DNA from: a virus
Virus record (IMG/VR): IMGVR_UViG_3300018080_000693
Coordinates: 1 to 20,301 of that record
Direction: 5' to 3' (one strand)
DNA: 20,301 bases
Part shown: positions 1,983 through 20,100 of the stretch, one piece after another
How positions within the stretch are numbered: the first letter of the stretch is position 1
How the letters are laid out: each line of letters opens with the position of its first letter
Notes under the pieces: generated by a model
What the model was told of the DNA's origin: nothing
Databases searched by the model: none
Seen by the model: the letters and a program-made list of their open reading frames with translations, nothing else
Translations under genes and position numbers: made by a program

Positions 1983-3692
1983 ATGCCATTTAATATAGGT
2001 AAGATAGATATAGCTGAAGATTTTATTAGTAGTTTCAAAGACATATTTGGTCTTGCTACTCCGGGGGCTTTGGCTTATAAGGGCGGCAATGCTACTAAGC
2101 TTTTTAAAAAAGAATTTGGGGGATCAAGTCGTTTAGAATCAGAAAATTGGGTAGGTAACGCAACTAAAACCAGAAGAGTACGCTATGGTTTTACTGTTAT
2201 GACGGGAGATTCAGTAAAATCTGGATTTACTACAGCTTTAGTTAATTTATGGCCTGAGGATTTAGATGATGCTACGTTTTACTTACAGATCGCTCCCACG
2301 TCCATAAAACAAAAAGAAAACTTTTCTACTAACATTTCTGCTACTCGTAGAGGTATTATTGTAGAATCCGAAGGTGTTGTTTTTAAAGATATTATAATAC
2401 AAGGTACTACTGGAGTATTCCCCGGAGATAGAGGAAATTCAAATGCTCCTAGAGCTGATCTTAATCCTTTAAATTGGACTTCTGCTCCATCGCCTCCTGC
2501 TGGAGTTGATGAGCGTGGTAGATCCAAAGCTGATGGTGTTAAAACTATTTCTGGTTATGAAGAATTTTTAAGATTAAGACAATTTTTTCTTCGATACGCT
2601 AAGACAAAATTAAATAGAGATGGTGATTTATTTTTAATCTGGATTAATGAAAAAGACGGAGAAAGTTTAATAGTAGAACATATGGATTTTACTATGGATA
2701 GGGATGCTAGAAGACCTATGGAATACCAGTACACAATAACACTTAGAGCTATAGGTAATTTAAACGCACTATTTGGTAGTGCGGAAGATCCCGAATATGG
2801 TATTTTTGGAGCTATCCAAAACATTTCTGCAAACGCTTCTGCAGCAATTCAGCAAGCAAGGCAAGCTATGAATCAAGGCTTTAGAACTTTACAACGCATA
2901 TCTCAAGCAATAGATCAAACTTTTATAAACCCGTTAAGGCAAGCTAACTTAGCACTGCAAGATTTTAATGACGGCCTTTCGTCTACCTTAGCTTTACCTT
3001 CTATACTATACCGCAATGCAACAAACGAAATTTTAGGGATTGCTGAGTCTGCCAAAGGAATCGCTTTAACCGTGGAAGAGGCTGGAACGTTTGGAGTAAA
3101 AGATATTACAAATGATACCGAAAGACAAGCAGCAGCCGCCACTGATTCTAGAAAGCAGACTATTAGAGATCAGATCAATAACGATAATAGAGTCCCAATA
3201 CCAAGGCGTTTTTTAGAGACTATTAAAAGCGAGGCAGTAAGTTTAAGAGATAATCTTAATGATTCTGTAGGATTAGGTGATACTTTTTATGATGCAATAA
3301 AAAAGCGTACTCCAACGCAAAGCGCAGGCCCTTTAAAAGAAGTTACTGAAGATGAATATATTTTAATTTCTGAAATTTTTAATACAGAAAATGTCTTAAA
3401 TCAAACTATGGCGACTAACGAAATATTTCAAACAGGTGCTGATGAAGTTACAAATAACACTAATAATATTTATAATGCTGAAGGATTTGATCTTAAAACA
3501 CCGCAAACAGTTCGAGAAGTTACTATAGAAAACAATGATACTTTAGAGAGGATAGCTGCTAGAGAGCTAGGAGATCCTTTAAGATGGCCTGAATTAATGA
3601 TTTTAAATAGATTAAAACCTCCATACATTTCTGCAGAAGGTGGAACTAACATTAAAAAGTATGGTGATATTATTTTAGTAGGGAATAGATAA
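1983..3692 (+). CDS. Baseplate/tail protein with C-terminal LysM domain
   Basis: A 569-aa protein. The C-terminal 60 residues (about 510-567: 'VREVTIENNDTLERIAA', then 'PLRWPELMILN', then 'GDIILVG') are a LysM-type fold. LysM modules occur in tail and baseplate proteins such as XkdP, P2 gpX and T4 gp53, where they work in assembly rather than as lytic enzymes. Residues about 65-260 form a beta-rich domain containing 'LQIAPTSIKQKENFS', 'GIIVESEGVVF' and 'DIIIQGTTGVFPG', features I associate with baseplate or tail-tip proteins. Residues 275-500 look helical and Gln/Ala/Asn-rich, a likely linker. The ATG follows only a weak purine stretch (aaaaagaaag, 1965-1974), so initiation may be modest. It is the first gene after candidate promoter 1. 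The exact wedge or hub role is inferred from order. Confidence 0.75.
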   Translation: MPFNIGKIDIAEDFISSFKDIFGLATPGALAYKGGNATKLFKKEFGGSSRLESENWVGNATKTRRVRYGFTVMTGDSVKSGFTTALVNLWPEDLDDATFYLQIAPTSIKQKENFSTNISATRRGIIVESEGVVFKDIIIQGTTGVFPGDRGNSNAPRADLNPLNWTSAPSPPAGVDERGRSKADGVKTISGYEEFLRLRQFFLRYAKTKLNRDGDLFLIWINEKDGESLIVEHMDFTMDRDARRPMEYQYTITLRAIGNLNALFGSAEDPEYGIFGAIQNISANASAAIQQARQAMNQGFRTLQRISQAIDQTFINPLRQANLALQDFNDGLSSTLALPSILYRNATNEILGIAESAKGIALTVEEAGTFGVKDITNDTERQAAAATDSRKQTIRDQINNDNRVPIPRRFLETIKSEAVSLRDNLNDSVGLGDTFYDAIKKRTPTQSAGPLKEVTEDEYILISEIFNTENVLNQTMATNEIFQTGADEVTNNTNNIYNAEGFDLKTPQTVREVTIENNDTLERIAARELGDPLRWPELMILNRLKPPYISAEGGTNIKKYGDIILVGNR

Positions 3693-4111
3693 TGCCAACA
3701 ATAACCAATATCGAATCTCAAATTACTAAAAGTCTAACCCAAACAGAGAAAGATTTAGGTGTAGATTTAAAATTATCAGATGGCGGAGATTTGATTTTAA
3801 ATAATACTAATGATTTTGTATTAATAGCAGGAGGAGCTAATGCTGCCCAAGCTATAAAAATTCAATTAGCTATTGAACCCGGAAGTTTACTATATCATCC
3901 TTCTTTAGGAACAGGGTTGTCAATTGGTACTAAAACTGTTGATGCCTTTGAGATTAAAACTCAGATTTTAAGATCTTTAAGTAAGGATACTAGATTTGAA
4001 GAGGTTAATGCTAAAGTTAAGATAGACGGTTCTGCCGCTTTGATTACTTTAAAAGTTCGTATAAAAAACACGGATAAACAAATACCACTTCAATTTGCTG
4101 TTACGATATAA
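3692..4111 (+). CDS. Baseplate wedge protein, gp25/gpW-like
   Basis: A 139-aa protein, the normal size for this family. Its middle holds 'AIKIQLAIEPGSLLYHP' followed by 'GTGLSIG', matching the region in gp25/gpW proteins where a conserved E-P pair begins a 'l.t..ge...p..G.gl' segment. The C-terminal half (ILRSLSKDTRFEEVNAKVKI ...) fits the usual beta-rich end of the family. In T4 and P2 this protein belongs to the baseplate wedge core and starts sheath polymerisation. The ATG overlaps the upstream TAA by one base (TAATG), with a weak AGGGA at 3680-3684. The position directly before a J-like gene is the classic arrangement and strengthens the call. Confidence 0.82.
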   Translation: MPTITNIESQITKSLTQTEKDLGVDLKLSDGGDLILNNTNDFVLIAGGANAAQAIKIQLAIEPGSLLYHPSLGTGLSIGTKTVDAFEIKTQILRSLSKDTRFEEVNAKVKIDGSAALITLKVRIKNTDKQIPLQFAVTI

Positions 4112-4122
4112 AGGATTATAAT

Positions 4123-7100
4123 ATGGCCGATTTTCAATTGAAATCATTTTCTCAGATTGTATCTAGCATGGCTGCAAAGATGGCTACGGAAACACCTATT
4201 ACGGATTTTAATCCGGGGTCAGTAGTGCTAACACTTTTAGAAGCTGCAGCTCAAGAAGATTATCAGCAATATGTTCAAATGCTACATATTTTAAGAGCGT
4301 TTTATTTGGATACAATTGAAGGCGAGGACCTTGATAAAAAAGCAAAAGAGTATAATTTAACTAGGCTTGCACCACTCCCTCATAGCGGTTATGTTACTAT
4401 ATCTGATGTTAGGTTTAATAAAATATCTTCTAAAATATACGCTGGGTTAGCCGGGCCAACTGCTGGTGCGTTTACTTTAAATATAGATGATGCTAGTTTA
4501 TTTACTTCTACAGGAGAGTTATATATAGGCAGGGGTACTGTAAATTCAGAAGGCCCCATAGCTTATTCCGCATCCCCGGTTGATAATTCAGCCTATTGGA
4601 CTATCACCCTTGATACTGCTTTAGTAAATGATCATGGTACCGATGAGACTGTTATTTTAGCTCAAGAAGGTACTAGAGTTATTGAAGCAGGTACCGAAGT
4701 GGCAATTCCAGAAACTGATTATAACGAACAAATATTGTTTGAGTTAAACCAAACAGTAGAGCTATTAGATGGTGAAGATACTTTAGAAAATGTGTTAGTC
4801 ACAGCATTGGAGCCCGGTGGATATACTGTTTCTGCCGGAGCTATAGCTGAATTTACCAATCCTCCATTTCCGGGAGCAGCGGTTACTAATCCACTCCCTT
4901 TTACTAATGGTAGAGATGAGGAAAGTGATCAATCATTACGAGATCGTATAAGAGAAACTATTCAGTCTCTTTCCAGAGGAACTACCCAATCAGTTAGAAC
5001 TGGAATTATAGGTTTAGTAGACGAAGATACTAATAGTAGTATTGTCAGTGCTAAAGTTGTAACTCCGGTTACTTTGGCAGATGGCCCTAGTCAAGTGTTT
5101 ATTGATAATGGTAGAGGTTTAGAGCCGGACTTAACTACAGTGGGCTTAGAGACTGTAATTTCTTCTGCTAAAGGTGGTGAGCAGTTTCTTCAATTAAAAG
5201 AATTTCCATTAGTCAAAGCTAGTGTTATTTCCCAGAACGTGGAACCATTTAATCTTTCAGGTAATGAGACTTTAATTATAAAAGTGGGAATTAATGAAGA
5301 GACCTTTACTTTTAGCTCAGATGATTTTTCTGTAGTAGGAAGAGCCGAAGCTACTGAAATTAGTGAGGCTATAAATAATAGAGCTTCGTTAGTAGAAGCT
5401 CGAACTATAACGGATTCTGATGGAAAAAGAATAATATTAACTCCAAGAGTTAGTGAAAATGAGGATTTACAGATTGATTCAGCTTCAACCGCTCAAACAG
5501 CTTTAAACTTTCCTACAATTAAAGTCAGAACTTTAAAATTATATAAAAATGATCAGTTACTTACTAAAGATGGATCAACGGCTTCTTTATTAAGTGAAGA
5601 ACAGCCTTTTAATTTAAATACTGAAATAGTAACTACTACAGACGGAGACTTTACGGTTACAGGAGATTCTAGAATAGTTTCAAAATCTGTAGCAGGTAGT
5701 TTTCCTTTTAGACAGTATATTCATACTGGTGATTATATTAAGTTGTCTTCTGATCCAGACGATTATTATAGTAGAGTTAGAACAGTAGTATCAGATACTA
5801 AATTAATTTTAGAGTCTTCATATAATAATTTAGGCGGTGGAGTAGGTGATATAGTTATATGGAATTCTCCTCAGCTAGAGGTTGCGGCTAATGGGGATAA
5901 AGAGGAGACAGAAGTTGTTTCTTTTTCCCCTAACGATTTCATAAATCCAGCGCAGGCTACTTCTAATGAAGTTTATACAAGGATGATTCAGGAGATTAAT
6001 TTATCAAACGTGAGTTTGTCTGTAAATAATTCTAGATTAAAAATAGTTTCTAATTTAGAAAACAGCGCTAATTCTAAAATTCAAGTTTTAGGAGGGGCGG
6101 CTGCAATAGCTATGGGATATTCTAGTACGGTATCTCTGACTGGGACTATTAGTTTTACGGGTGGTAATGTTATAGTAGTAGGTAGTGGGACTTCGTTTTT
6201 ATCTGAATTAGAAGAAGGGCAATGGATTAAAGCAGATAGTCATGGAAATGGATCTTGGACAAAAATAGAAACCATAGAAAGTAATACTATTCTATATTTA
6301 ACTGAAGGATACCGAGGAGCTACAGTTTCTGGAGCAGCAGCTAGTAAGATAGAATTTAGTGAATTAGCTGAAGGTAAGAATAAAGATTACGTTCTAAATA
6401 GAACTAATGGTCAAATAGAGCTCACAACTCCATTAGTTGCAGGAGATAACGTAACTGCGGGGTCGGTAGATACTAGAGCTTTCGTTGATTCAGTTTTAGA
6501 AACTTTCGATTTTGATAGTATAGGTGCCACGTCTACACTGATAGTGGCTGTTGATAAAGGGTTTGAAGCTTCAGTTACTACTGGAGATGGATCAGCTCCT
6601 TATAATACTTTTAGAGCGTCCAGTTTAATAGGATATGAGCCTAACTTTTTTGTAGGTTTTCAGATTGAATGGGTAGGTGGAAATAACAATGGTGAAGTTG
6701 ATTTTGTAGCTTCATATGATAATACTACTGGAGAAATAGTTTCAGTTAATAATTTTTCTGGAAGTATAAATATAGGCGACCAATTTGTATTAAATCAGGT
6801 TATTACTTTTACAAATGCTACTGATTTTGTAGATGCTCAAAATGTGACAGCTGCCGAAGTAGTAGCGGCTATTAATTCTCAGATTTTAGGTGGAAAATCA
6901 GAAGAACTATCTACTGGAGCAGTCAGACTTAGAACTAGTAATTTTGGGGATTTGGGAGCTATTCAGGTTAAAGGCGGAAGTGCTAATAATGTGTTAGGTT
7001 TTGAGTTAACTGAGAATTTAAACCAAGTTACTAACTTAGCTTATGTCATATCTGGAAATTCTGATAGATCAGGATTAGATGATTTCTTAGGCTATACATT

Positions 7101-8481
7101 AGGCCCCGATCAAAATCTTGTTGTAATATTAGATGACGATAGTGCTAATAAAACTTTTGGTGTGAAATTGCAAGTTAGTGATACAGTAGATACTGGAGGA
7201 ACTGGAACTTTTACTGCATCTAGCGATATACCTAGTAAATACACTATAGATGATTATTTTAAGGATTTTTGGGTCTATTGGACTAGCGGTTCAAACGAAG
7301 GTAGTGTTCAAACTGTAGACTCTTATAATGCTACTACTGGCGTGTTTACAGTCACTGACGTATTTCCAGCATCAGTAGGTGCTATAAGCGCGGGAGATGA
7401 ATACGTGTTAGTTCCTAGAACTGCAGAGAATGTTTCAGCCTTAATAAATAATTATAATGTAACAACTTTTTCTATTGAAGGAACTTCCGAAGTTATAGAA
7501 ATTACTGGAGATTATGTTCAGCTTTCTACCAAAACTTCTGGAAGTGTTGGAAAAGTATACGTTACTGGAGGAAGCGCAAATAGTTTAGGTATAAGCATTA
7601 CTGGTACTCCAGTTGGAGCCCCAGTTAATGACGTAACTGTCAATTCTAAAGCAGGATTAGCTAAAGGTTTATTTGTTAAACTATCTGTAGATGCTGAAGT
7701 TACTACAGCAGACACAACAGTTCCGTATAATACTTTTAGATCTTCAGATTTGATTTCCTCTTTACCTAATTATTTTCAAAATCATGAAATAGAGTTTTTA
7801 ACTGGGTTTAATGCGGGAAGTAAGACCACTATCACTTCTTACGATAATACTACTGGTGAGATTATTTTAGCAGATAATATGACAAATGCTATAAATTTAG
7901 AAGATACTTTTAGAGTTAGTCAACCCGCAGTAGTAGTGGATATACAAGGCTCTGCATCGCCATATACTATAAGCTTTAACGATCTATCAAATAGTGCTAT
8001 TGATGTATCTGGATATACTACAGCGTTGAGTTCAGCTATTAGAGATTATAACGGTTTAAATTTTGATACTATTCAGGTAGAGGGTGTGGATGGTTATAAG
8101 CATTATAGCGGTTTAATACAGCTGGCTCAATGGACTATTGATGGGTTGGATCGAGATTCTTTAAATTATCCCGGAATTGGAGCCGGAGGAACTCAATTTG
8201 AAGTTCTAACTTCAGTTATTGTGAAGTTGAAAATTACTTTAAACGTTACTCCAGAAGAAGGGAAGAGCTTGAGTTCAATTAGTGGTGATGTTTCTAACGC
8301 TGTTAGTGAATATATAAATTCTAGAGGTGTTGGAGATGATGTAGTATTGACTGAGATTATAGCTTCAGTACAAAATGTTATTGGAGTGTATGACGTTGAG
8401 ATAGTCAATCATGACGAAAATATAATTATCGCAGACAACGAGTTAGCTCGTATAGATGTTAATGATATAGTAATCGGATAA
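4123..8481 (+). CDS. Giant baseplate J-like wedge protein with a long modular insertion
   Basis: A 1452-aa protein; ordinary baseplate J proteins are about 300-500 aa. Residues 1-310 show the family: 'FNPGSVVLTLLEAAAQ' (29-44), 'DTIEGEDLDKKAKEYNL' (63-79), then 'TNGRDEESDQSLRDRIRET' (261-279) and 'RGTTQSVRTGI' (285-295). The family's end reappears at about 1363-1452: 'NVTPEEGKSLSSI' and 'DVVLTEIIASVQNVIGVYDV'. Between lie about 1000 residues of repeated beta-rich modules, listed separately. The protein should form the inter-wedge ring of the baseplate (T4 gp6 analogue), with the extra modules projecting as an elaborated rim. AAAGGA at 4110-4115 precedes the ATG. The next gene starts 3 bp after the stop. 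I see no frameshift. Confidence 0.85.
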   Translation: MADFQLKSFSQIVSSMAAKMATETPITDFNPGSVVLTLLEAAAQEDYQQYVQMLHILRAFYLDTIEGEDLDKKAKEYNLTRLAPLPHSGYVTISDVRFNKISSKIYAGLAGPTAGAFTLNIDDASLFTSTGELYIGRGTVNSEGPIAYSASPVDNSAYWTITLDTALVNDHGTDETVILAQEGTRVIEAGTEVAIPETDYNEQILFELNQTVELLDGEDTLENVLVTALEPGGYTVSAGAIAEFTNPPFPGAAVTNPLPFTNGRDEESDQSLRDRIRETIQSLSRGTTQSVRTGIIGLVDEDTNSSIVSAKVVTPVTLADGPSQVFIDNGRGLEPDLTTVGLETVISSAKGGEQFLQLKEFPLVKASVISQNVEPFNLSGNETLIIKVGINEETFTFSSDDFSVVGRAEATEISEAINNRASLVEARTITDSDGKRIILTPRVSENEDLQIDSASTAQTALNFPTIKVRTLKLYKNDQLLTKDGSTASLLSEEQPFNLNTEIVTTTDGDFTVTGDSRIVSKSVAGSFPFRQYIHTGDYIKLSSDPDDYYSRVRTVVSDTKLILESSYNNLGGGVGDIVIWNSPQLEVAANGDKEETEVVSFSPNDFINPAQATSNEVYTRMIQEINLSNVSLSVNNSRLKIVSNLENSANSKIQVLGGAAAIAMGYSSTVSLTGTISFTGGNVIVVGSGTSFLSELEEGQWIKADSHGNGSWTKIETIESNTILYLTEGYRGATVSGAAASKIEFSELAEGKNKDYVLNRTNGQIELTTPLVAGDNVTAGSVDTRAFVDSVLETFDFDSIGATSTLIVAVDKGFEASVTTGDGSAPYNTFRASSLIGYEPNFFVGFQIEWVGGNNNGEVDFVASYDNTTGEIVSVNNFSGSINIGDQFVLNQVITFTNATDFVDAQNVTAAEVVAAINSQILGGKSEELSTGAVRLRTSNFGDLGAIQVKGGSANNVLGFELTENLNQVTNLAYVISGNSDRSGLDDFLGYTLGPDQNLVVILDDDSANKTFGVKLQVSDTVDTGGTGTFTASSDIPSKYTIDDYFKDFWVYWTSGSNEGSVQTVDSYNATTGVFTVTDVFPASVGAISAGDEYVLVPRTAENVSALINNYNVTTFSIEGTSEVIEITGDYVQLSTKTSGSVGKVYVTGGSANSLGISITGTPVGAPVNDVTVNSKAGLAKGLFVKLSVDAEVTTADTTVPYNTFRSSDLISSLPNYFQNHEIEFLTGFNAGSKTTITSYDNTTGEIILADNMTNAINLEDTFRVSQPAVVVDIQGSASPYTISFNDLSNSAIDVSGYTTALSSAIRDYNGLNFDTIQVEGVDGYKHYSGLIQLAQWTIDGLDRDSLNYPGIGAGGTQFEVLTSVIVKLKITLNVTPEEGKSLSSISGDVSNAVSEYINSRGVGDDVVLTEIIASVQNVIGVYDVEIVNHDENIIIADNELARIDVNDIVIG
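4441..4659 (+). repeat. Protein module D, copy 1 (residues 107-179 of the J-like protein)
   Basis: A segment with an 'IDDAS.F....GELYIGRGT' strand followed by 'SEGPIAYSA' and a later 'DHGTDETVIL'. The same pattern recurs in the neighbouring wedge protein at 9943-10137. The similarity is at protein level only. Confidence 0.55.
5308..5514 (+). repeat. Protein module A, copy 1 (residues 396-464)
   Basis: Pattern shared by six segments of two adjacent wedge proteins: F..DDF....(A)ATEI..AIN, a variable strand, 'R+ILT.R', then a closing strand and 'ALNF'. This copy runs from FSSDDFS to LNFP. It is more divergent than copies 2 and 3. Confidence 0.55.
5626..5856 (+). repeat. Protein module C, copy 1 (residues 502-578)
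   Basis: Pattern: variable strand, 'I.TGDYIKL', 'YYSRVRTVVSDTKLILES'. It resembles segments at 6136-6342 and 8875-9105, which share 'GT.FL.EL..G.(W/Y)I' and 'I...T(I/L).L'. This is the weakest copy of the three. Confidence 0.45.
5917..6126 (+). repeat. Protein module A, copy 2 (residues 599-668)
   Basis: Runs from 'FSPNDFINPAQATSNEVY' through 'RLKIVSNLENSANSKIQVLGG' split elements to 'AIAMGYSS'. It shares the DFINP..AT..EV opening with copy 6 in the next gene, and the 'I.+.GG.A' closing with copies 3 to 6. Confidence 0.65.
6136..6342 (+). repeat. Protein module C, copy 2 (residues 672-740)
   Basis: Contains 'GNVIVVGSGTSFLSELEEG' then 'QWIKAD' and 'WTKIETIESNTILYLTE'. It is clearly similar to the segment at 8875-9105 of the next gene (GT.FL.EL..GD.I, V.KI.DD.TLEL). 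Confidence 0.62.
6553..6792 (+). repeat. Protein module B, copy 1 (residues 811-890)
   Basis: Contains 'PYNTFRASSLIG', 'FQIEWVGGNNNGE', 'SYDNTTGEIVSV' and 'INIGDQFVL'. Copies 1 and 3 share PYNTFR.S.LI and SYDNTTGEI exactly in places. It alternates with module A. Confidence 0.72.
6805..7008 (+). repeat. Protein module A, copy 3 (residues 895-962)
   Basis: Contains 'ITFTNATDFVDAQNVTAAEV', 'VAAINSQILGG', then 'AVRLRTSNFGDLGAIQVKGG' and 'SANNVLGFEL'. It is the clearest A copy and close to copies 5 and 6 of the next gene. Confidence 0.7.
7156..7410 (+). repeat. Protein module B, copy 2 (residues 1012-1096)
   Basis: Contains 'FTASSDIPSK', 'FWVYWTSGSNEGS', 'SYNATTGVFTVTD' and 'ISAGDEYVLV', aligning with module B copies 1 and 3. 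Confidence 0.7.
7408..7602 (+). repeat. Protein module A, copy 4 (residues 1096-1160)
   Basis: Starts 'LVPRTAENVSALINNYNV' and ends 'VYVTGGSANSLGISITG'. The N-terminal 'DF' segment is lost or replaced where it joins module B, so this copy looks shortened. Confidence 0.6.
7672..7923 (+). repeat. Protein module B, copy 3 (residues 1184-1267)
   Basis: Contains 'PYNTFRSSDLISS', 'HEIEFLTGFNAGSK', 'SYDNTTGEIILAD' and 'INLEDTFRVS'. It is the last module before the protein returns to the J-family C-terminal domain. Confidence 0.72.
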
Positions 8482-8484
8482 AAT

Positions 8485-10386
8485 ATGTCAGATTTTGATG
8501 AAAAATTTAAAAGACTAACAAAGTCATTACCCTCTTTGTATAAACCGGAGCTTAATACGATGATCAGAGGTCTTCTGCAAGCATGGGCTGTAGGAGATAG
8601 TGACGTGGAATTTAATATTGCGGCAGCTAAAGATCAGTTATTTACCGAAACTGCCGGAGGTAAGTATTTAAATAGATTAGGCAGTGATGCGGGAGTTGAC
8701 AGGTCTGCTAATTTAGGTATAGACGATGACACTTATAGGGAATTAGTTCCCGTTATGTCTTTTCACCCAAAGCAGGTTAGAAAAACTATAATTTCTCTTT
8801 TGGATGTTTTTTGGGGAGCTGGGTTTACTAGAGCTAATATAGATAGCGGTAATGTGGAGACTTATAATTTTGGGGCAGAAACGGTTATTGGCGGAACCGT
8901 TATTTTTAGAGCCGATATGACTACTGTAAAAGGTCTCGGGACTAATTTTTTAACAGAGTTATCTGCGGGAGATTATATAAGACCTAATGGTTTAGATGGT
9001 TATCATTATGTAAAAGTATCTAAAATAATAGATGATGAAACTTTAGAATTATCAACTAAATGGGAATTTGATCCGGCAGTTAATGTGAATATAGTTAAGG
9101 GCCTAGTTAGAACATTAGATTATACAGTAGACCAAAGAATAAGCAAAACGATTAGGTTTATACCTAGCGCATTTGCGGATTTATCGCAAGTTACTAATGC
9201 TGAAATCATTAATTTTATTAATAATAATCCAGAACATAGTACATATATTACCGCTAGTGTTAAAATAGACCCTATTAGTGGGGATCGGTTGAATATAAGA
9301 ACCAATACTCCCGGACTTCAAGGAGCTATTCAAATTACTGGCGGAGATGCGAATTATGTAACTAGATTAAATTTTGATTCAGCTTTACAGACTGAAACTA
9401 AAGCATCTGTTTATGAAATAAACCCAAACGAGATAGTAGTAAAAATACCTAGTTCGGTACCAGTTTTAAGACGATACTTAGCAGGATCTGCGCATCCTAG
9501 AGAAACTAAGGCAAGGATTTTTTCTAATGAAGAGATTTTTAATTTTGCAGGTTTGGGAGCAAATTCTACATTAGATATTATTATTGATGGAACTTTGTAT
9601 GTAGTTAATTTTAACCACGCCACGGACTTTATTAATCCGTCAAAGGCTACTGCATACGAGGTTGCTCAAGTAATTGATTCTCAACTCACGTTTCTTAGAG
9701 CAGAAGCTAGTTGTGATGAAAGTATAAGAAAAATAGTACTTTATACTACAGAAGGTAGTTCAGAATATCAAGTAACTGGAGGTACGGCCAATTCAATTTT
9801 AGGTTTTGGTACTTCCTTACAGACAGATCGAGATATTATAGAGACTGATTTTCCATCAGCTTATATTTTTGATCCTGTAGGCCAGCTTTATACTGTAACA
9901 GGTGTAAAATCAGAATTAACTTCAGATATAAATATTGGATCAGTTTTATCTTATATTTCTGTTGGAGACGCTTCTTCTTTTCCTAATGCTCCGGGTAAAT
10001 TGCTTTTTGATTTTGGGAGAAGTGCGGAAGAGGGGCCTATATCTTATACTAGTAGACCTAATAACTCTACTTTGTTAATTGATGCTAGTCATGTATTTGA
10101 GAAAGAGCATTTAGCTGGTAGTGTGGTAAATTATATAGTTAACCAACCGTCACTTCCTAGAGTCACTGGGGATGATTATCCCGTATATATTACAGGGACT
10201 TCCGAGGCTAGGCAGGCGGCTCAAGATTTAATAAAAAAATTACTAGCTGCTGGAGTAGTAGTTAGATTTATTATAGAATTTCCGGAATTTTTGTTTGAGT
10301 GTATAATAGCGTCAGCAGATCCGTCTATATATGATCCTGATTATCAAGGATCTTTAACAAGCTCTGATCCGTTAACGTTTTATTAG
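8485..10386 (+). CDS. Baseplate wedge protein, tail-protein-I-like, modular
   Basis: A 633-aa protein. Residues 1-120 carry 'LTKSLPSLYKPE', 'AAAKDQLFTETAGGKYLNRL' and 'HPKQVRKTIISLLDVFWGAGF'. This layout of a short helical N-terminus followed by a 'TA.GK.L..LG...GV.R' segment is typical of wedge proteins that sit next to baseplate J. P2 gpI is the positional analogue, though P2 gpI is far shorter (roughly 180 aa). Residues 131-551 hold one module C, two module A and one module D copy. The C-terminal 'EARQAAQDLIKKLLAAGVVV' returns to a helix-strand structure. The protein probably links the J-ring to the fibres. The ATG comes 3 bp after the upstream stop with only a weak CGGA before it, so translational coupling is likely. 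The name rests on context plus N-terminal features; the exact family is uncertain. Confidence 0.72.
   Translation: MSDFDEKFKRLTKSLPSLYKPELNTMIRGLLQAWAVGDSDVEFNIAAAKDQLFTETAGGKYLNRLGSDAGVDRSANLGIDDDTYRELVPVMSFHPKQVRKTIISLLDVFWGAGFTRANIDSGNVETYNFGAETVIGGTVIFRADMTTVKGLGTNFLTELSAGDYIRPNGLDGYHYVKVSKIIDDETLELSTKWEFDPAVNVNIVKGLVRTLDYTVDQRISKTIRFIPSAFADLSQVTNAEIINFINNNPEHSTYITASVKIDPISGDRLNIRTNTPGLQGAIQITGGDANYVTRLNFDSALQTETKASVYEINPNEIVVKIPSSVPVLRRYLAGSAHPRETKARIFSNEEIFNFAGLGANSTLDIIIDGTLYVVNFNHATDFINPSKATAYEVAQVIDSQLTFLRAEASCDESIRKIVLYTTEGSSEYQVTGGTANSILGFGTSLQTDRDIIETDFPSAYIFDPVGQLYTVTGVKSELTSDINIGSVLSYISVGDASSFPNAPGKLLFDFGRSAEEGPISYTSRPNNSTLLIDASHVFEKEHLAGSVVNYIVNQPSLPRVTGDDYPVYITGTSEARQAAQDLIKKLLAAGVVVRFIIEFPEFLFECIIASADPSIYDPDYQGSLTSSDPLTFY
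8875..9105 (+). repeat. Protein module C, copy 3 (residues 131-207 of the I-like protein)
   Basis: Contains 'GTVIFRADMTTVKGLGTNF', 'LTELSAGDYIRP' and 'YVKVSKIIDDETLELS'. It matches the module C segment at 6136-6342 in the J-like gene. Confidence 0.62.
9154..9375 (+). repeat. Protein module A, copy 5 (residues 224-297)
   Basis: Contains 'FIPSAFADLSQVTNAEIINF', 'RLNIRTNTPGLQGAIQITGG' and 'DANYVTRLNF'. It follows the same order of elements as module A copies in the J-like protein. Confidence 0.65.
9604..9810 (+). repeat. Protein module A, copy 6 (residues 374-442)
   Basis: Contains 'FNHATDFINPSKATAYEVAQ', 'KIVLYTTEGSSEYQVTGG' and 'TANSILGFGT'. It is close to copy 3 (ATDF, EV...I.SQ, GG.AN..LGF). 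Confidence 0.7.
9943..10137 (+). repeat. Protein module D, copy 2 (residues 487-551)
   Basis: Contains 'ISVGDASSFPNAPGKLLFDF', 'EEGPISYTS' and 'EKEHLAGSVVNYI', paralleling residues 107-179 of the J-like protein. Confidence 0.55.
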
Positions 10387-10432: not shown

Positions 10433-12946
10433 ATGGCTTTATTGCAAAGAACACGCCTCATATCTCAAGAACGGTTGGATTTGCCAGATTACCGCAACAT
10501 CGAAGCGTTTGTTTGTGCAGATTTTGCAGCTTTGGGAAAATATGTATGGAGCGGGCAAAATTTTGTATTAACTGGGTTTGAAGCAAGTGGAGTAGGAGCT
10601 TCGACTTTTAATCTTCAAGTAGCTGGTTCAGTGGCTATAATAGGCTCCAATCAAGGAACCATGTTTATAGGAGCCCCTTCGCTTAGCGCTTTAACAACAA
10701 CTAATTTAACGCCATCAACTACTAATTTTGTAGAAGTTTATATAGATCAAGATAGTGGTGGTTCAGACTCTAGAGCTTTTTGGGATCAGACCGCATTAAG
10801 TGGATCTGGAGCCGAGTTCTCTCAAATAGTTGACACTTTTATATTTTTAAAGGCAGCACTTAGTATTAATACTTCTAATTTTACTGGGGATGCTGATAAG
10901 GTTGCTGTTTGTGAAGTGGATGTTAATTCTTCTGGCGTTATTACTGAAATAAGAGACTCCAGAAATATGTTTTTTCGCTTAGGAAGAGCTAGTAATTTAA
11001 CATATAGTCATCCTTGGGCTACTAGAGTAGAGCCCTTAAATACGCAGTTTACTGGAGCTGATAAAGACATTTCTACTTTAAAAGAGTTTTTTGATGCTTT
11101 AATGAGCTCTTTTCAGGAAATAAAAGGTACTACCTATTGGTATGAAAATGCCGCTGTTTCTCTGCAATCTTCATTTAGAAATTTAGGCATGTCCGTTCTA
11201 ACTGGAGTAAATTCCAGTGCTAGATTTAGTTGGTCAGGAAGTGAACTAAGTATAACTGATAACTCCCTTTCTCCCAGCTCATCTGATACTATTGCTTTTT
11301 TGAGATTGTTTGATAGTTTAGCGGATTTAGAATTAACTAGGCAGGACAGTGGTAGTACAATTAGCCTAGCAAATGGAGAAGTGTTATATATAGAAATACC
11401 AGATCCATTAGCGAATGTAACTTATGATGGCGTGGGCCTTACTTCAGTTAATTATCAAGTAGCTTCAAGAGGTAGTGTTCCGCTAGAAGATAATATTTAC
11501 TGGCTAGCTTACAGAGAAGATACTAAATTATATTTAAGAGGTTTAGGAGAACTAGAAGCTGGAGAAGAAAGACAAATAAATGATGAAACTCCAGAATCTC
11601 TATCACAATTTCTAGGCTTTAATCCCGAAACAGCCACCTATGTACCTTATTCAGCTTTACCTGATTCAGCTATCTTTAGTAACATTTTTGACACTAGTGA
11701 TACTTTAGTTACAGCTATTTCAACGAATACTGCTAATATAAACATTATAGGAACTACGCTTGATACGAATGCTTATACAGAATTAATGGATGTTGTATCC
11801 GGGGCTCCTGCTAATAGTAATGAAATTACGGGCCCAGTTTCTTCTGGAGCTTTAATAACCCTCCCCAACGACTCTAGAGATAGCGGCAGTGCCGAAGAAT
11901 ATTTAGTAGGCAATGGTACTTTAAAAGTATTTTTAAATGGAGTTCTTTTACATTTAGGTCGAGGGTATGCTGAAGTAGGAACTGCGGGAACTTTAAGTGA
12001 TCAAATACAAATTCTACAAGACTTACCTGTAGGTGATGTTTTAACATTTAAAATAGATAGTTTAGGCGGCTTTAATATAGGAGGCGGTGGTACGGGTGAT
12101 GTAGTAGGTGCTAGTAATGTAGGTAGTGGTAATGGTGAAGTTTTTAAACAAAAAGTATCTGGTAATTTAGAGTTAAGAAAAATAAAAGCCGGTGCTGGTA
12201 TTAGTGTTATTACATCTGGTGATGATATTATTATAGCTCTTACTGGAGGAACCCCTGAGGCATTTTTTGCTAATTATATTACGGGTCAGACTTCTACATT
12301 AATTGGGACGGGTGGTGATTATAATTTAAGTACTAACAAATTAGGCGTTTATAGAAATGGCGTGCTGATGTTTAATAGTACTACTGCTGGAGGAGCTATT
12401 GATAGATATCAAGAAGCTACCAATAATAGCATATTAGTGGAGACCACACCCCTATCTTCAGAAGTATTTACTTTTATTAATTTAGATAGTATTCCGACTT
12501 ATAGAAATATCATTACAGGCGTAACTGGTACAGTTTTAACAGTGGCTACATATACCATGGGAGATAAATCTTTAAGAGTATTTAGGAATGGTGTATTAAT
12601 GAATGCGGCTGGTTATGGTAGTGCTGTTGATCAATATTCAGAAACCACTAGTACATCGATAACATTGAATTCGGCGGCTGTAGCTAGTGATGTTTTTGTA
12701 GTAGAGAGTGGTCCTTCTTTAGTAGCAAGAGAAGATATAACTGGAGTAACAGGAACCACTTTAAACATTACCACGCCTTATACGGTGGGTAATGGCCGCT
12801 TACTAGTTTACAGAAATGGAATTTTAATGGTTAATAGTACAACTTTATTAAGTGCTACTGATAGATATCAAGAAACAAGTCCGACTACTGTAGAGCTCGA
12901 AACTGCCGCAGTTGCGTCTGATGTTTTTACTTTTATACAAGTATAA
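10433..12946 (+). CDS. Modular tail fibre/baseplate-distal protein with tandem beta modules
   Basis: An 837-aa protein. The N-terminal about 240 residues are one domain (LISQERLDLPDYRNIEAF, 'FVEVYIDQDSGG', 'EIRDSRNMFFRLGR', 'ADKDISTLKEFFDALM', 'IKGTTYWYEN'). It probably attaches the protein to the baseplate, but I cannot name the family firmly. Residues 250-420 are another beta-rich region. Residues 448-544 form a long 'R' module, 555-606 a 'SNVG' module, and 615-684, 691-758 and 768-836 three tandem R modules. Each short R module has 'L.V(Y/F)RNG(V/I)LM' followed by D.Y.E and a hydrophobic 'S(E/D)VF' close. AAGGA at 10422-10426 precedes the ATG by 6 nt. It is the first gene after candidate promoter 2. 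Its role in host adhesion or fibre attachment is inferred. Confidence 0.72.
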   Translation: MALLQRTRLISQERLDLPDYRNIEAFVCADFAALGKYVWSGQNFVLTGFEASGVGASTFNLQVAGSVAIIGSNQGTMFIGAPSLSALTTTNLTPSTTNFVEVYIDQDSGGSDSRAFWDQTALSGSGAEFSQIVDTFIFLKAALSINTSNFTGDADKVAVCEVDVNSSGVITEIRDSRNMFFRLGRASNLTYSHPWATRVEPLNTQFTGADKDISTLKEFFDALMSSFQEIKGTTYWYENAAVSLQSSFRNLGMSVLTGVNSSARFSWSGSELSITDNSLSPSSSDTIAFLRLFDSLADLELTRQDSGSTISLANGEVLYIEIPDPLANVTYDGVGLTSVNYQVASRGSVPLEDNIYWLAYREDTKLYLRGLGELEAGEERQINDETPESLSQFLGFNPETATYVPYSALPDSAIFSNIFDTSDTLVTAISTNTANINIIGTTLDTNAYTELMDVVSGAPANSNEITGPVSSGALITLPNDSRDSGSAEEYLVGNGTLKVFLNGVLLHLGRGYAEVGTAGTLSDQIQILQDLPVGDVLTFKIDSLGGFNIGGGGTGDVVGASNVGSGNGEVFKQKVSGNLELRKIKAGAGISVITSGDDIIIALTGGTPEAFFANYITGQTSTLIGTGGDYNLSTNKLGVYRNGVLMFNSTTAGGAIDRYQEATNNSILVETTPLSSEVFTFINLDSIPTYRNIITGVTGTVLTVATYTMGDKSLRVFRNGVLMNAAGYGSAVDQYSETTSTSITLNSAAVASDVFVVESGPSLVAREDITGVTGTTLNITTPYTVGNGRLLVYRNGILMVNSTTLLSATDRYQETSPTTVELETAAVASDVFTFIQV
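11774..12064 (+). repeat. R module, long form (residues 448-544)
   Basis: Contains 'YTELMDVVSGAPANSNEITG', 'LKVFLNGVLLHLG' and 'LPVGDVLTFKID'. It aligns along its full length with the stand-alone 109-aa protein at 16753-17082 (DVVSG.P....I.GPVS.G...TLP; L.V.LN.V.L; VGDV..F.ID). Confidence 0.72.
12095..12250 (+). repeat. SNVG module, copy 1 (residues 555-606)
   Basis: Order of elements: 'GASNVGSGNGEVFKQK', 'LELRKIKAGAGISVI', 'DDIIIALTGGTP'. The same order occurs in the next gene at 13258-13410. This short module recurs in many phage fibre proteins. Confidence 0.75.
12275..12943 (+). repeat. Three tandem short R modules (residues 615-837)
   Basis: Units at 12275-12484, 12503-12706 and 12734-12943, about 70 residues each with short linkers (ITGVTGT begins units 2 and 3). 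Shared elements: L.V(Y/F)RNG(V/I)LM, D(R/Q)Y.E, a beta strand, and S(E/D)VF. DNA identity looks low, so these are old duplications. Confidence 0.78.
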
Positions 12947-15059: not shown

Positions 15060-16742
15060 ATGGCTGACATTAGTAGGATTTCCCGATTATTAAATGGGGT
15101 TCAACGAGGCATTGATCTTCCTAATAACTCGCTAGTAATGCAGAGTTTGAAGGTCAGTTCCGATGGTGGATCGACTTCTACCGAATTAACTAAAACTATT
15201 TTAGATCAACTGATAACACACAGAATCAGTGATGGTTCCGATCACTCTATTGTTGTTTCCAACCAGACACATGCTACTGGAGATGGATCAGACCACGCTG
15301 ACGTAGCAACCAACACTACTCATAGTACTGGTGACGGTAGTGACCATGCTGACGTAGCATCCAATACCACTCATAGTACTGGTGACGGTAGTGACCATGC
15401 TGATGTAGCATCGAATACTACACATAGAACTAGTAATGGTTCTGACCATAGTTATGTTGGTAATTTGCAGAGTTTATCTGGTGTTGCTGCTGGATCTGCT
15501 GATCTAGGCTCGTTTACTGGATCTACTATTCCAGATTCGCAGACAATGAAGCAGGCATTGCAGGCTTTAGAAACTTATGCTGAAGCTTCAAGATCTTTAA
15601 TTAACAATTTTGAATGGCTAAACTCAGCTAAAGATTATATCGCAGATAATACGCAAGCCCCACCTACAGAAGTTAGTGGTGATAGATATATTCTTTCCCA
15701 TGATGGTGGCTCTCCACATGCAGATTGGGATGGCGCTAGTGCTGGTGATGTAGTTGAATTTGACGGATCTTCTTGGAATGCTACCACTCCATCACTTGGA
15801 ACTTTCATTTCTGCTGACGATGAAGCTGATGTGTTGTACTATTGGGGCGGATCTTCTTGGGCATCTAAGGCTTTTGAATCAACAACTGCGAGTACTGGTT
15901 TAACAAAATCAAGTTTTGATATTCAATTGGCTGACGCAGCTGCTGCTAATGGTATACAGGTTTCTAGTGGCGCTATTTCTGCTGTAGTTGATGACAGTTC
16001 AATTGAAATTAATGGTTCTAATCAAATAGCTATTAAAACAGGTGGAGTTTCTAACGCTGAAGTAGCTGCTGATGCCGCAATCGTAGAATCTAAACTATCT
16101 CTTGATTATAGTACTTCTAGTTTAAATACTGCTGTTTCTAACGCACAAAGCGAAATTGACGGTATTGAAACTGCAATGGGATCTGTGATAGATTCTAATG
16201 GTGATTACAGTGCCCACAGTGGTACTAATTATATAGACGGTAATTCAAATGTAACTGAGGATTTAACAGATTTAGATACTCAGGTTAAATCTAACACAGA
16301 TGCGATAGCCGCTATTTCAGTCGCTGCTATTAAAGAAGACTTGGTTGCTGGCGAATCTTTCCTTTCTGCAAATGCTCCTTTCGCAGTAAGATGGGGTGTT
16401 ACAGATCTTGATACTCCAGAAACCGCTGGAAGAGTTTACAAAGCAGATCCAACTGAACTTAGTTTAGTTAAGAGCGGTGGAAATAAAGATCCATTTCATG
16501 TTATTGGTATAGCAAATCCAGCATCAGATGTTGCTGCTAGTGAAAGTATGGAAGTTGTTAAGCATGGCCCTGTTACTGTTTCAAGTCATGGTCTTGCTGT
16601 TGGCGAACCTATTTATTTAGATTCAAGTGGAGCTTTAACAAATACAGCTCCTTCTGCAGCTAGTGAAGCAGTAGTTAAAGTTGGAGTTGCAAAAGATGCT
16701 AACGTTATTGATGTAGCAATTGAGATAATGGGAGTTAACTAA
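15060..16742 (+). CDS. Tail fibre with five His-containing 17-residue repeats
   Basis: A 560-aa protein. Residues 1-35 have 'RISRLLNGVQRGIDLP', a common phage fibre start. Residues 53-137 are five tandem 17-residue repeats (T-H-x3-(D/N)-G-S-D-H), listed separately. Residues 139-175 carry 'AAGSADLGSFTGSTIPDS' and 'ALQALETYAE', recurrent in fibre proteins. Residues 185-272 ('NSAKDYIADNTQAPP', 'SGDRYILS', 'DGSSWN', 'YYWGGSSWASK') resemble the DUF2793-like domain. Residues 365-410 ('MGSVIDSNGDYSAHSGTN', 'DLTDLDTQVKSN') are another widespread fibre motif, probably coiled-coil to beta. Residues 425-560 form a decoration-like C-terminal domain. It is a trimeric adhesin-type protein by analogy. AGGAG at 15047-15051 precedes the ATG by 8 nt. 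Confidence 0.76.
   Translation: MADISRISRLLNGVQRGIDLPNNSLVMQSLKVSSDGGSTSTELTKTILDQLITHRISDGSDHSIVVSNQTHATGDGSDHADVATNTTHSTGDGSDHADVASNTTHSTGDGSDHADVASNTTHRTSNGSDHSYVGNLQSLSGVAAGSADLGSFTGSTIPDSQTMKQALQALETYAEASRSLINNFEWLNSAKDYIADNTQAPPTEVSGDRYILSHDGGSPHADWDGASAGDVVEFDGSSWNATTPSLGTFISADDEADVLYYWGGSSWASKAFESTTASTGLTKSSFDIQLADAAAANGIQVSSGAISAVVDDSSIEINGSNQIAIKTGGVSNAEVAADAAIVESKLSLDYSTSSLNTAVSNAQSEIDGIETAMGSVIDSNGDYSAHSGTNYIDGNSNVTEDLTDLDTQVKSNTDAIAAISVAAIKEDLVAGESFLSANAPFAVRWGVTDLDTPETAGRVYKADPTELSLVKSGGNKDPFHVIGIANPASDVAASESMEVVKHGPVTVSSHGLAVGEPIYLDSSGALTNTAPSAASEAVVKVGVAKDANVIDVAIEIMGVN
15216..15470 (+). repeat. Five tandem 51-bp in-frame repeats (17-residue units)
   Basis: Units cover residues 53-69, 70-86, 87-103, 104-120 and 121-137, with consensus THSTGDGSDHADVASNT. 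Histidines fall at unit positions 2 and 10 in every copy (54/62, 71/79, 88/96, 105/113, 122/130). Copies 3 (15318-15368) and 4 (15369-15419) differ at only 3 of 51 bases, all silent, which points to recent duplication or gene conversion. Outer copies are degenerate. Confidence 0.9.
16332..16739 (+). repeat. Decoration-like domain, copy 2 (residues 425-560)
   Basis: Contains 'MEVVKHGPVTVSSHGLAVG', 'EPIYLDSSGALTNTAPS' and 'VVKVGVAKDANVIDVAIE'. This element order is typical of beta-tulip capsid or tail decoration domains and parallels 14520-14831. Confidence 0.62.
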
Positions 16743-17101: not shown

Positions 17102-20100
17102 ATGGCCGGTGTAAAAATTGATGCACGACAAATAATTTCGAGAGATGCTCTTGATCAACTAAAAGGCTCAGCTAATACTGAACTTGACGATCTTTTACGG
17201 GCAATAAATTCAGAAATAACTCCCCCGCTTAGAATGGACGCCTCCAGTCCTGCTGATTTAACAGTTAGTATAGGAGCTGTTCAGATAAGCGACTCTGAAA
17301 ATAACAGAGTTAAATCGGGAGCTCATATAAACGGAACCCTTCCGACTTTTACTTCGGGAAGTATAACTTTTCCATCCTCTAGCGGTGGCACAGTGACCAT
17401 TTCTCCCGGAACTAATACTACTGTAAGTATTACTAGTAATAATTATAGAAAGGGTTTAATCTATTTAAAAGAAAACGGGGATTTGGATATAGCTTTTGGC
17501 GTAGAAAACGCCACTGAAGCAAATGCTACGGTTCCCGATGTTATAGTTAATACATACCCAATTGGTTATGTTACTTTATTTAATAACGCTGGAACTATTG
17601 ATAATGTTAGTCAGGATAAAATAGTTCAGTTTTTCTACCCTTCGGGTATTCGTGGTAGTAATTCCCCTCTTGACTCGGCTTCTGGAGGACCTCTGTTTCT
17701 AGCATCCTCTACTAAAAGTGCTAATTATACTATAACTGATACTGATAATTTATCAGTTATATTAGTAGACGACACTTCCTCAGATAGAACTATCACGCTA
17801 CCAACCGCAACAGATAATACTGGTAGATTTATTATTATTAAAAACGTTTCTTCTGATGGTGGGAAAGTCACAGTTGATGGGGAAGGTAGTGAAACCATTG
17901 ATGACGTATTAACTAAAGATTTACTTTATATAAATGATTTTATAGCAGTGCATTGTGATGGAAGTAATTGGAATATTGTAGCTACAAATATTAGAGGTGA
18001 GTGGTTTAGTTATTTTAATAACTTTGTCGCTCCAGCAGAAAGCACCGATTTAACTCAAAATACTATTACAATAGTCGATTACACCAATCTTGGGTCAGAT
18101 ACGTGGGTGATAAGAACTCCTCAAGGAGATGTTACTTTAACAGAAGGAACAGATTTTACAGCAGCGACAAGCAACGATGCTACGGCATCTAGTTTACAGT
18201 CAGCTATTGCTGCAATAGCAGGATACGAAAGTTCCACAGTAGACGGAGCAGTTATTTCTCTTGTCTGTGATTATAAGATAGAGATGACTCCAAGTGACAA
18301 TTCAAATGCAACCACTAAGATTAATAACCCTAATGCGTTTGAAGTATTCTTTGATGATAGACATCCATATTATGGTGAAGAGAAACTGATCATTGAAGAT
18401 TTAATACCTACTGGTAAGGCCGACTTTGACGGACTTCCAATATATGAAGTAAAAATCAAAGGTGATAAGTACGGATATTGGAGAGATAAGATAAAAGCAG
18501 TTGGAAGTTGGAAGTTTTACTCAGCAGCGGCTGGTCAAGGAATATTTTTAGATAATGAAGATGGATCTTATTTGGAAGTTTCTGGTAGATATACAGATGT
18601 ATATTTGCTTGGCAGAGTACATAGTTCTACTCAGATTTCTGATTTTAACGTATATGAAAATGGGGTGGATAGTGGTAATGACCTAAGTTTAATAGGGTCT
18701 GGAGTATTGCTTAATTTAAGTTTTAATGCACTTAATCAAATCGAAATTAAAAAAGGGTTTTCTTCTGGGTTGAATTCTATTAAACTTCAAGCACAAACTT
18801 CAGGTACTGATGATGCATTGATTTTTGGTTTCATAATAAACAACAGCGATTCAAGCACTAACATAGGTTATACCAAGGGCGATTCTTATATAAGTGGGTA
18901 TAAAGATTCTCATACTTCAGAAAATGAACTTGTAAAACCCGCAAGTTATACAGGCGAACATGGCGCAAGGGTTATTCAGTATCAAACAAGAACAGGCATT
19001 GAAACTGCCTATACAGAATCAGATAGGCCGGCAGACGCTTCTAGCGTGTCTGGATCTTCAGGTACCACAGGATTGACAGTAGGATCTGGAGGAACAGTAT
19101 ATAAAAATGGTGACATGGTAAGAATCACAGAGGGTTCAAACGAAGAGATTAATTGTATAGCTTCGGGTGGTGGTACAGGATCTTGGACAATGAAGAACAA
19201 CTTGTCTGCTACTTATACAAGTGCGACAATTGAGTTTTATGGTCATACAGGAGATTCGGTAACAGATCTTTATAGTGAAGATATTAGAAGAATACATTAT
19301 AGAGAATTTCCTGAATTCAGTAGTGGTAGTGGATCAGGTCAAGATAAGGCTGGTGTATTAGAGGATGGTGTTACTTCTTTGGTAGGTAATGACCTAGTAT
19401 TTACACAGGGTTATATTGGTAATACAGCAAGTGCACAAGATGATTATGTTATTTTTAGTGCTTTTTGTTCTGGTTTAAGACTTTTTGGTAAAGATTACAC
19501 TGGAACAAATTTTATGCAGGTTATTGTAGATGGAACAGAAGTTAATAATTTTAATAATCAATCATTGTCTGGTGTAGCAGGAGATCGATATTTTGATATA
19601 GCAAGTGATTTACCGCTTGGACTTCATACATTTAAGATTTCTGCAAATATAGCAAATGGCAACTTCTTGATAAAAGAATTTATCCCACTTCAACCAAAGA
19701 AACCAGTAATCACGGAAGATCATATCGAATTAAGAGATTATTGCGTATTGGCAGATCATGTTCCGTTCACGGGTGCATCTAACGTACTTAAAATAGATCA
19801 AGGCGTTGTAAGATATCATTGTGACCGATATTTTCATTACAATAATGTGGATGATAATGGAGATTGGGGTAGAACTGGATATAACGCTAATATTGGTGGT
19901 CGTCATATATATGGCGCAGATCAAAATGATTATCTCGAACTTACTAAGTGGTGTCGGGGCTTTGTATTAAGGTATGAAGATGCAGACAATGCTTCTGAAC
20001 AAGTTGGCATTAAAATAAATGGATTGGATGCTACAACTGCGAATTTCGCTAATTTAACTACGAGTTATTCGGATACAGATCCCTTTAATGGCACTGATGA

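Follow-up and report, generated by a model that had tools for sequence, protein, structure and literature searches.

The locus studied here raises the question of how a protein of the baseplate wedge can be enlarged several-fold, and what the additional part of it may do. The wedge ring is a conserved core of contractile tails and is usually regarded as fixed, while the fibres vary. The window, i.e. the whole stretch of DNA that was analysed, is a virus record of 20,301 bases and represents a metagenomic fragment. It contains an open reading frame at 4123-8481 (+) encoding a product of 1452 amino acids, designated here as J.

The interrupted core of J

The product of this reading frame is a genuine baseplate J (gp6-like wedge) protein of the contractile-tail type. 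Pfam Baseplate_J (PF04865) matches residues 181-288 (42.2 bits, cut-off 21.1, E 7.9e-11), PHROG 6 (baseplate wedge) matches residues 4-309, and tail/baseplate family matches resume at about residues 1356-1446 (Pfam, PHROGs). Three parts of the core can be distinguished. The first is the N-terminal helical segment (residues 1-96; 4123..4410, +), recognized by PHROG 6 and by the profile alignment of J 9-85 to residues 23-97 of pyocin R2 Tri1a, which correspond to the N-terminal helical segment of the wedge core bundle. The second part (M, residues 181-369; 4663..5229, +) carries the Baseplate_J beta core, whose profile matches nine solved wedge proteins (E up to 0.01). The third part (Z, residues 1312-1452; 8056..8478, +) is the C-terminal domain; its model resembles the C-terminal domain of pyocin PA0618 (5ces_A, Z 9.9) and phiCD508 (Z 10.3), and PDB profile matches support this domain as well. 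Furthermore, the gene order gp25/W-J-I is present in the window, with a W-like gene at 3692-4111 (PHROG 975/120), J and the gene for a protein of 633 amino acids, and the same order is found in the relatives.

In phi812 ORF62, residues 95-205 correspond to J 186-299 and residues 246-332 to J about 1353-1439; in diffocin TRI-2, the two core blocks are located at 93-185 and 249-341. As the two blocks are thus only 40-65 residues apart in solved wedge proteins, compared with more than 1000 residues in J, the interruption of J is real, and the split of the J-family core proposed in the earlier note, is borne out, as the matches stop at residue 309 and return at 1356. Indeed, the compact J proteins (pyocin R2 Tri1a PA0618, phi812 ORF62, phiCD508 gp65, Mu gp47) have the N-terminal, beta-core and C-terminal domains in common with J, but comprise only 295-378 amino acids and possess about 40-65 residues where J possesses about 1050. 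The insert itself extends over residues about 370-1311 (nt 5230-8055), has a length of about 940 residues and precedes the C-terminal domain. It is therefore wider than the span of 5308-7923 to which the array had been assigned from the sequence, although an array is found there. A row of four similar domains, into which smaller domains are plugged, enlarges the core protein three- to five-fold. That baseplate J proteins are normally about a third as long holds for the solved ones (295-495 amino acids), but not for the uncultivated family to which J belongs, where complete proteins have 913-2949 amino acids.

Modules of the insert and their nesting

Repeats in J were detected by all-against-all hhalign comparison of segments cut from the orthologue alignment. 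A probability of >90% was reached by 46 of 990 forward segment pairs and by none of 576 reversed-profile controls (maximum 34.5%), so the repeats are far beyond chance and an array of repeated modules, as had been suggested for this protein, does exist. By hhalign, copies of module A are located at about 362-466, 596-672, 891-967 and 1097-1160 (the fourth was also found by HMM), copies of B at about 815-893, 1018-1097 and 1190-1268 (E about 1e-24 for B1 against B3), and copies of C at 492-568 and 665-748. A search for tandem repeats at the DNA level returned nothing within J, as the module copies are too diverged, and internal matches were likewise absent when J was compared with itself by plain BLASTP, so that the repeats had to be detected by profiles.

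The late part of the array had been described as an alternation of A and B. The order B1-A3-B2-A4-B3 is found, but it is not a plain alternation, because B and C are inserted inside A copies. As judged from the sequences, the four A domains are a fixed chassis and the B and C domains are inserted into its copies, a nesting that was missing from the earlier note. There are five plug-ins on the four chassis: C1 and C2 in A2, B1 in A3, B2 and B3 in A4. Indeed, 18 shorter relatives lack exactly residues 500-579 (C1), 813-889 (B1) and 1156-1311 (B3 with its flanking hairpins), all three runs are kept in 11 of 11 long orthologues, and A3 is contiguous across the B1 point in the shorter relatives. 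B2 is retained in shorter relatives too, including the type with 1175 amino acids.

The borders of the chassis were located by a motif scan, in which a scoring matrix made from contiguous A domains at other loci was run blindly over the orthologues. The four best places of the A start motif were 369, 489 (second best), 1274 and 788, and 984 was obtained with a longer matrix; the A end motif was found at 953, 456 and 1307. The third-best start place (J about 1274-1297, nt 7942-8013, SPYTISF...) lies after B3 and outside the four-chassis scheme. In the relative with 1175 amino acids (L028), the four best start motifs are at 367, 761, 489 and 867, and the end motifs at 451, 845, 1030 and 710. This protein possesses four A frames, with a different insert of ~130 residues in A2 and a B domain in A4. 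The plug-ins enter either at the first hairpin of A or at the point before its last strand.

Upstream of the insert, J possesses a smaller additional domain, D (residues 97-180; 4411..4662, +), between the helices and the beta core, which was recognized by hhalign and HMM. J 97-177 matches residues 474-548 of the neighbouring protein I at 93-94% (hhalign), and the D HMM gave 100 matches among the J and I proteins of the family; a sequence-profile comparison of D with solved structures gave no match. The insert begins with A1 (residues 370-466; 5230..5520, +), an uninterrupted chassis resembling flagellin/FliD D2 and delimited by its motifs for start (369) and end (456). It is followed by A2 (5587..6379, +; start 489, body 583-668, end near 744-752), assigned by motif and fold, which hosts the barrels C1 (residues 500-579; 5620..5859, +; pLDDT about 90) and, before its last strand, C2 (residues 669-748; 6127..6366, +; PHROGs, PDB profile, pLDDT about 94). 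The location of C2 inside A2 is the least certain of the five placements; it was chosen because of the end motif in relatives (710 in L028) and a fold alignment that spans C2. Linker E (residues 749-787; 6367..6483, +), with its YVLNRTNGQIEL hairpin, is the most conserved segment of the array (73.7% mean identity), and J 740-813 matches residues 292-370 of I (hhalign). A3 (6484..7020, +; body 893-966) extends from the start motif at 788 to the end motif at 953 and hosts B1 (residues 813-889; 6559..6789, +), a barrel of the RcGTA hub fold, in its first hairpin. The last chassis, A4 (7072..8061, +; start 984, body 1097-1155, last strand about 1307-1313), was identified by HMM and motifs and carries B2 (residues 1016-1096; 7168..7410, +), which matches B1 and B3 at 96-97% (hhalign), and, before its last strand, B3 together with flanking hairpins (residues 1156-1311; 7588..8055, +), recognized by BR0599.

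Predicted folds and conservation

An AlphaFold2 model of J 280-1452, based on a shallow alignment of 30 sequences, had a mean pLDDT of 77.9, with values mostly of 80-95 over residues 749-1309. C2 was without confidence in this model, probably owing to the shorter relatives, in which another module takes its place. In a second model covering J 467-815 and based on a shallow alignment of orthologues only (11 sequences), C1, A2 and C2 were mostly at pLDDT 75-97, and C2 was predicted with high confidence. In line with the array proposed earlier, the insert is thus predicted as separate domains with independent fold matches rather than as one continuous fold, and the same array recurs in J homologues of equal length.

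Module A has the fold of flagellin and FliD D2 (Z 8.8-10.4), a likeness at the fold level. The A1 model matches residues 172-276 of Vibrio cholerae FlaA (D2 region; Z 10.4, rmsd 2.5, 95 residues) and the D2 region of FliD (Z 10.0). A2 matches flagellin D2 (Z 8.8) with a model range spanning C1 and C2, and one FliD alignment covers A3 while skipping B1. In sequence comparisons, the Flagellin_IN motif was found weakly in 2 of 13 members of module A (best E 0.0035), and flagellins head the list of PDB profiles, also weakly (E 0.27-1).

The C modules are related to other tail proteins. C2 matches PHROGs of tail fibre/minor tail proteins (E 6e-8 and 2e-7), the C profile matches the distal tail protein gp20 (E 5e-8) and the F2-pyocin side fibre (E 0.003) in the PDB, in both cases near their N-termini, and C is 42% identical to the N-terminus of phage N15 gp25 (E 0.003), annotated as a probable tail fibre component.

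For the B modules, both the fold and the sequence family point to the C-terminal domain of the RcGTA and R4C hub proteins (BR0599). The model of A3 with B1 matches residues 145-265 of the RcGTA hub (6tba; Z 11.7, rmsd 3.1) and the hub of siphophage R4C (Z 10.3), so that a part of the host A3 is included in the likeness. BR0599 (PF09356) matches J 1217-1266 in B3 (E 1.2e-5, 26 bits, cut-off 22.9), and its profile matches 8 of 12 B copies (best E 5e-4). However, the hub is not a wedge protein and carries one B-like copy per chain. Pfam matches of J to Ten1, Ubiquitin_DCDC1, KH_1, Vel1p and EcoRII-C were below the cut-off and were rejected. C1 also resembled ubiquitin E1 (Z about 7), and B3 resembled elongation factor 1A; both likenesses were taken as common barrel arrangements. 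Note that the matches of J domains to fibre, hub or flagellin-like domains do not make J a fibre, hub or flagellin protein, and annotations should be treated with corresponding caution.

Relatives of J were sampled from 57 IMG/VR loci, two bacterial MAG contigs and phage Mx1. The frame N-D-M-A is common to all readable relatives, and A4-Z forms the end of nearly all complete ones. J and its ten closest complete orthologues have 1451-1455 amino acids and the same module order, nearly all of these orthologues coming from other samples. A single metagenomic contig might contain a gene fusion due to misassembly, or its modules might resemble each other by chance through low complexity; given these ten orthologues and the reversed-profile control, the probability of such an artefact is practically negligible. 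The length of J follows the clade, and members of a clade keep the same kinds of plug-in.

Among 50,697 cultivated phage records, the protein WNM70274 of the Myxococcus phage Mx1, whose J has 1925 amino acids, is the only relative over the whole of J at E <1e-5. Proteins of the same shape from uncultured Caudovirales, called 'Baseplate protein J-like', are present in BFVD (A0A6J5KUV1, A0A6J5L250); like WNM70274, they are long J proteins annotated merely as J-like. A search of the literature yielded papers neither on the Mx1 baseplate nor on a nested array architecture. This architecture thus appears to be undescribed in the literature searched, though sequences of such J proteins are already in the databases. 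The longest relative seen, with 2949 amino acids, is encoded on a Mariprofundaceae MAG contig (L076:5221-14067). On an Elusimicrobia MAG contig (L075:8977-16465), J is split into overlapping reading frames of 443 and 2081 amino acids with core parts in each, due to either a frameshift or an assembly error.

The neighbouring gene encodes I (8485-10386, +), a gp7-like wedge protein of 633 amino acids with weak baseplate-protein matches. According to the motif scan and the HMM map, I possesses a fifth A (start 120, end 290) that hosts a C module (about 123-211), a sixth A without interruption (345-446) and a D module (476-552). The modules of J and I match at 97-99% in hhalign and at 1e-8 in BLASTP; that two adjacent wedge genes have modules in common is notable in itself. 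The lengths of J and I are correlated (Spearman 0.74), but this was not significant after tree contrasts (P 0.12), and the coupling was dropped as evidence.

J, I and the first part of a protein of 837 amino acids are the best conserved long proteins of the locus. Across relatives, identity to the window is 57-63% for J, 55-60% for I and 56-60% for the first 540-600 residues of the 837-amino-acid protein. The spike and LysM proteins are 29-45% identical, and the fibre tips and the proteins of 271, 349 and 560 amino acids are exchanged or partial. Within J, orthologues are 68-71% identical in the core, 54-68% in A, 56-58% in C and 49-55% in B.

Possible role of the array, and other genes of the window

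The main adhesin or receptor-binding part of a phage is usually hypervariable, like fibre tips. That the array varies less than the fibre tips argues against it being this part; by its sequence conservation, it behaves like a scaffold rather than like fibre tips. The B modules, which change fastest, would fit a surface-contact role as well.

Large additional domains of wedge proteins are known from other contractile systems. In AlgoCIS, the gp6-like wedge protein Alg11 (PDB 7AEB) carries an insert (278-643) with two predicted carbohydrate-binding modules, and its domain IV forms a spike cage (PMC8894135); opening of this cage has been proposed to precede the expansion of the iris, i.e. to have a role in firing (PMC8894135, PMC13314943). 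Of the additional domains of Anabaena Cis11, one contacts a fibre-like protein and another forms a cage (PMC8894136). J resembles Alg11 and MAC / T6SSiv / Anabaena Cis11 in being a gp6/J-like wedge protein with a very large insert containing beta domains. In Alg11 and its counterparts, the copies of the insert build an additional baseplate structure (PMC8894135, PMC8894136), and the insert of J may do the same. The two differ in that the insert of J comprises ~940 residues, consists of a flagellin-D2-like chassis with nested barrels and occurs in a phage, whereas the cage of Alg11 is made of different domains, predicted carbohydrate-binding modules; the sequence profiles did not recover Alg11. 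In the insert of J, a Pfam search found no carbohydrate-binding module family, and B resembles the oligosaccharide-binding domain of the GTA hub. Among phages, an insertion domain is found in the J wedge protein gp31 of the Anabaena myophage A-1(L), where one copy holds the long tail fibre (PMC10966104). Its chain 8kea matches the core of J. However, gp31 has 390 amino acids and a single insertion of roughly 100 residues without a repeated or nested array.

On balance, we favour the view that the ~940-residue insert of nested domains makes J part of a skirt or cage supporting fibre attachment, cell contact and pre-contraction signalling. Four tandem A domains resembling flagellin D2 are inserted in J, three of them carrying B or C barrels, which gives domains inside domains inside J, and the wedge partner I carries an array of the same kind. 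Six or twelve copies of the insert might then surround the baseplate and extend below it as a large outer skirt or cage, although the insert may also take the form of an outward rim or of side projections, as the earlier note had supposed. If each of six wedges contained two J proteins, as in A-1(L), about 11,000 residues, i.e. >1 MDa, would be contributed by the inserts alone. The skirt or cage would support the attachment of fibres, touch the cell surface and, as proposed for Alg11, signal attachment to the wedge ring before the sheath contracts. Variation in host range would lie mostly in the fibre tips and not in the J array, and contact of the B modules with glycans would be a secondary possibility.

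Binding of glycan by B modules, as the earlier note had considered, is possible by analogy. It is consistent with the match of B to the RcGTA hub (Z 11.7), where residues 168-249 have been given the name oligosaccharide-binding on the basis of structural similarity (PMC7296036). The array might even act mainly as a secondary adhesin, in which B and perhaps C barrels would bind cell-surface or capsule glycans at numerous places around the baseplate, in the way proposed for RcGTA, and A would serve as spacers. Besides the hub domain and the BR0599 matches, the predicted carbohydrate-binding modules in the Alg11 insert (PMC8894135), the fast evolution of B and a Kelch propeller within the array of one lineage (L073) speak for such a role. 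This propeller is located at about 720-950 (Pfam Kelch_4, E 3.9e-17) of a J protein of 2270 amino acids (L073:8980-15789). However, the oligosaccharide-binding assignment was made by resemblance, elongation factors and tail-tube proteins contain similar barrels, the array shows no hypervariability and keeps a constant length within the clade (1451-1455 amino acids), and variation is concentrated in the fibre tips. We regard a mainly adhesive array as unlikely.

Alternatively, the array could be a passive adaptation of size or strength, giving a wider or reinforced baseplate without fibre docking or signalling. At the fold level, the modules resemble many long tail proteins from uncultured phages, so such beta modules may accumulate widely, and lengths differ by lineage with no obvious pattern. 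Plug-in identity is nevertheless kept within clades, and the occurrence of C at the N-termini of fibre and distal tail proteins suggests interaction surfaces; a purely passive array appears quite improbable.

Returning to the skirt or cage, the wedge core protein owes its enlargement here to nested domain insertion; J and I have related modules, and the plug-ins differ by lineage. Tentatively, A might be a dedicated acceptor in both proteins, receiving foreign domains at two fixed sites. The wedge ring would then be a modular platform for a lineage-specific cage or docking collar, and J would represent the first spike-cage-like extension of a J protein in a tailed phage. Should the insert be a cage or docking collar, it would connect tailed phages with the model of two-step firing put forward for AlgoCIS and would define sites where wedge proteins tolerate additional domains.

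Several other features of the window were observed. A hydrophobic, proline-rich reading frame of 201 amino acids (1307-1912) is located between the spike-like and LysM-like baseplate genes; tblastn of the tested loci gave no orthologue of it. The 837-amino-acid protein (10433-12946) is conserved like J across relatives in its first about 540-600 residues, while the remainder is exchanged; three similar segments of ~75 amino acids (RNGVLM...DRYQE) were seen by eye in its C-terminus. The gene for the putative fibre protein of 560 amino acids contains a 51-nt tandem repeat at 15259-15449 with units of the HSTGDGSDHADVASNTT type. Finally, a reading frame of 1066 amino acids (17102-20299) is open at the contig end, and relatives have further fibre genes in this position.
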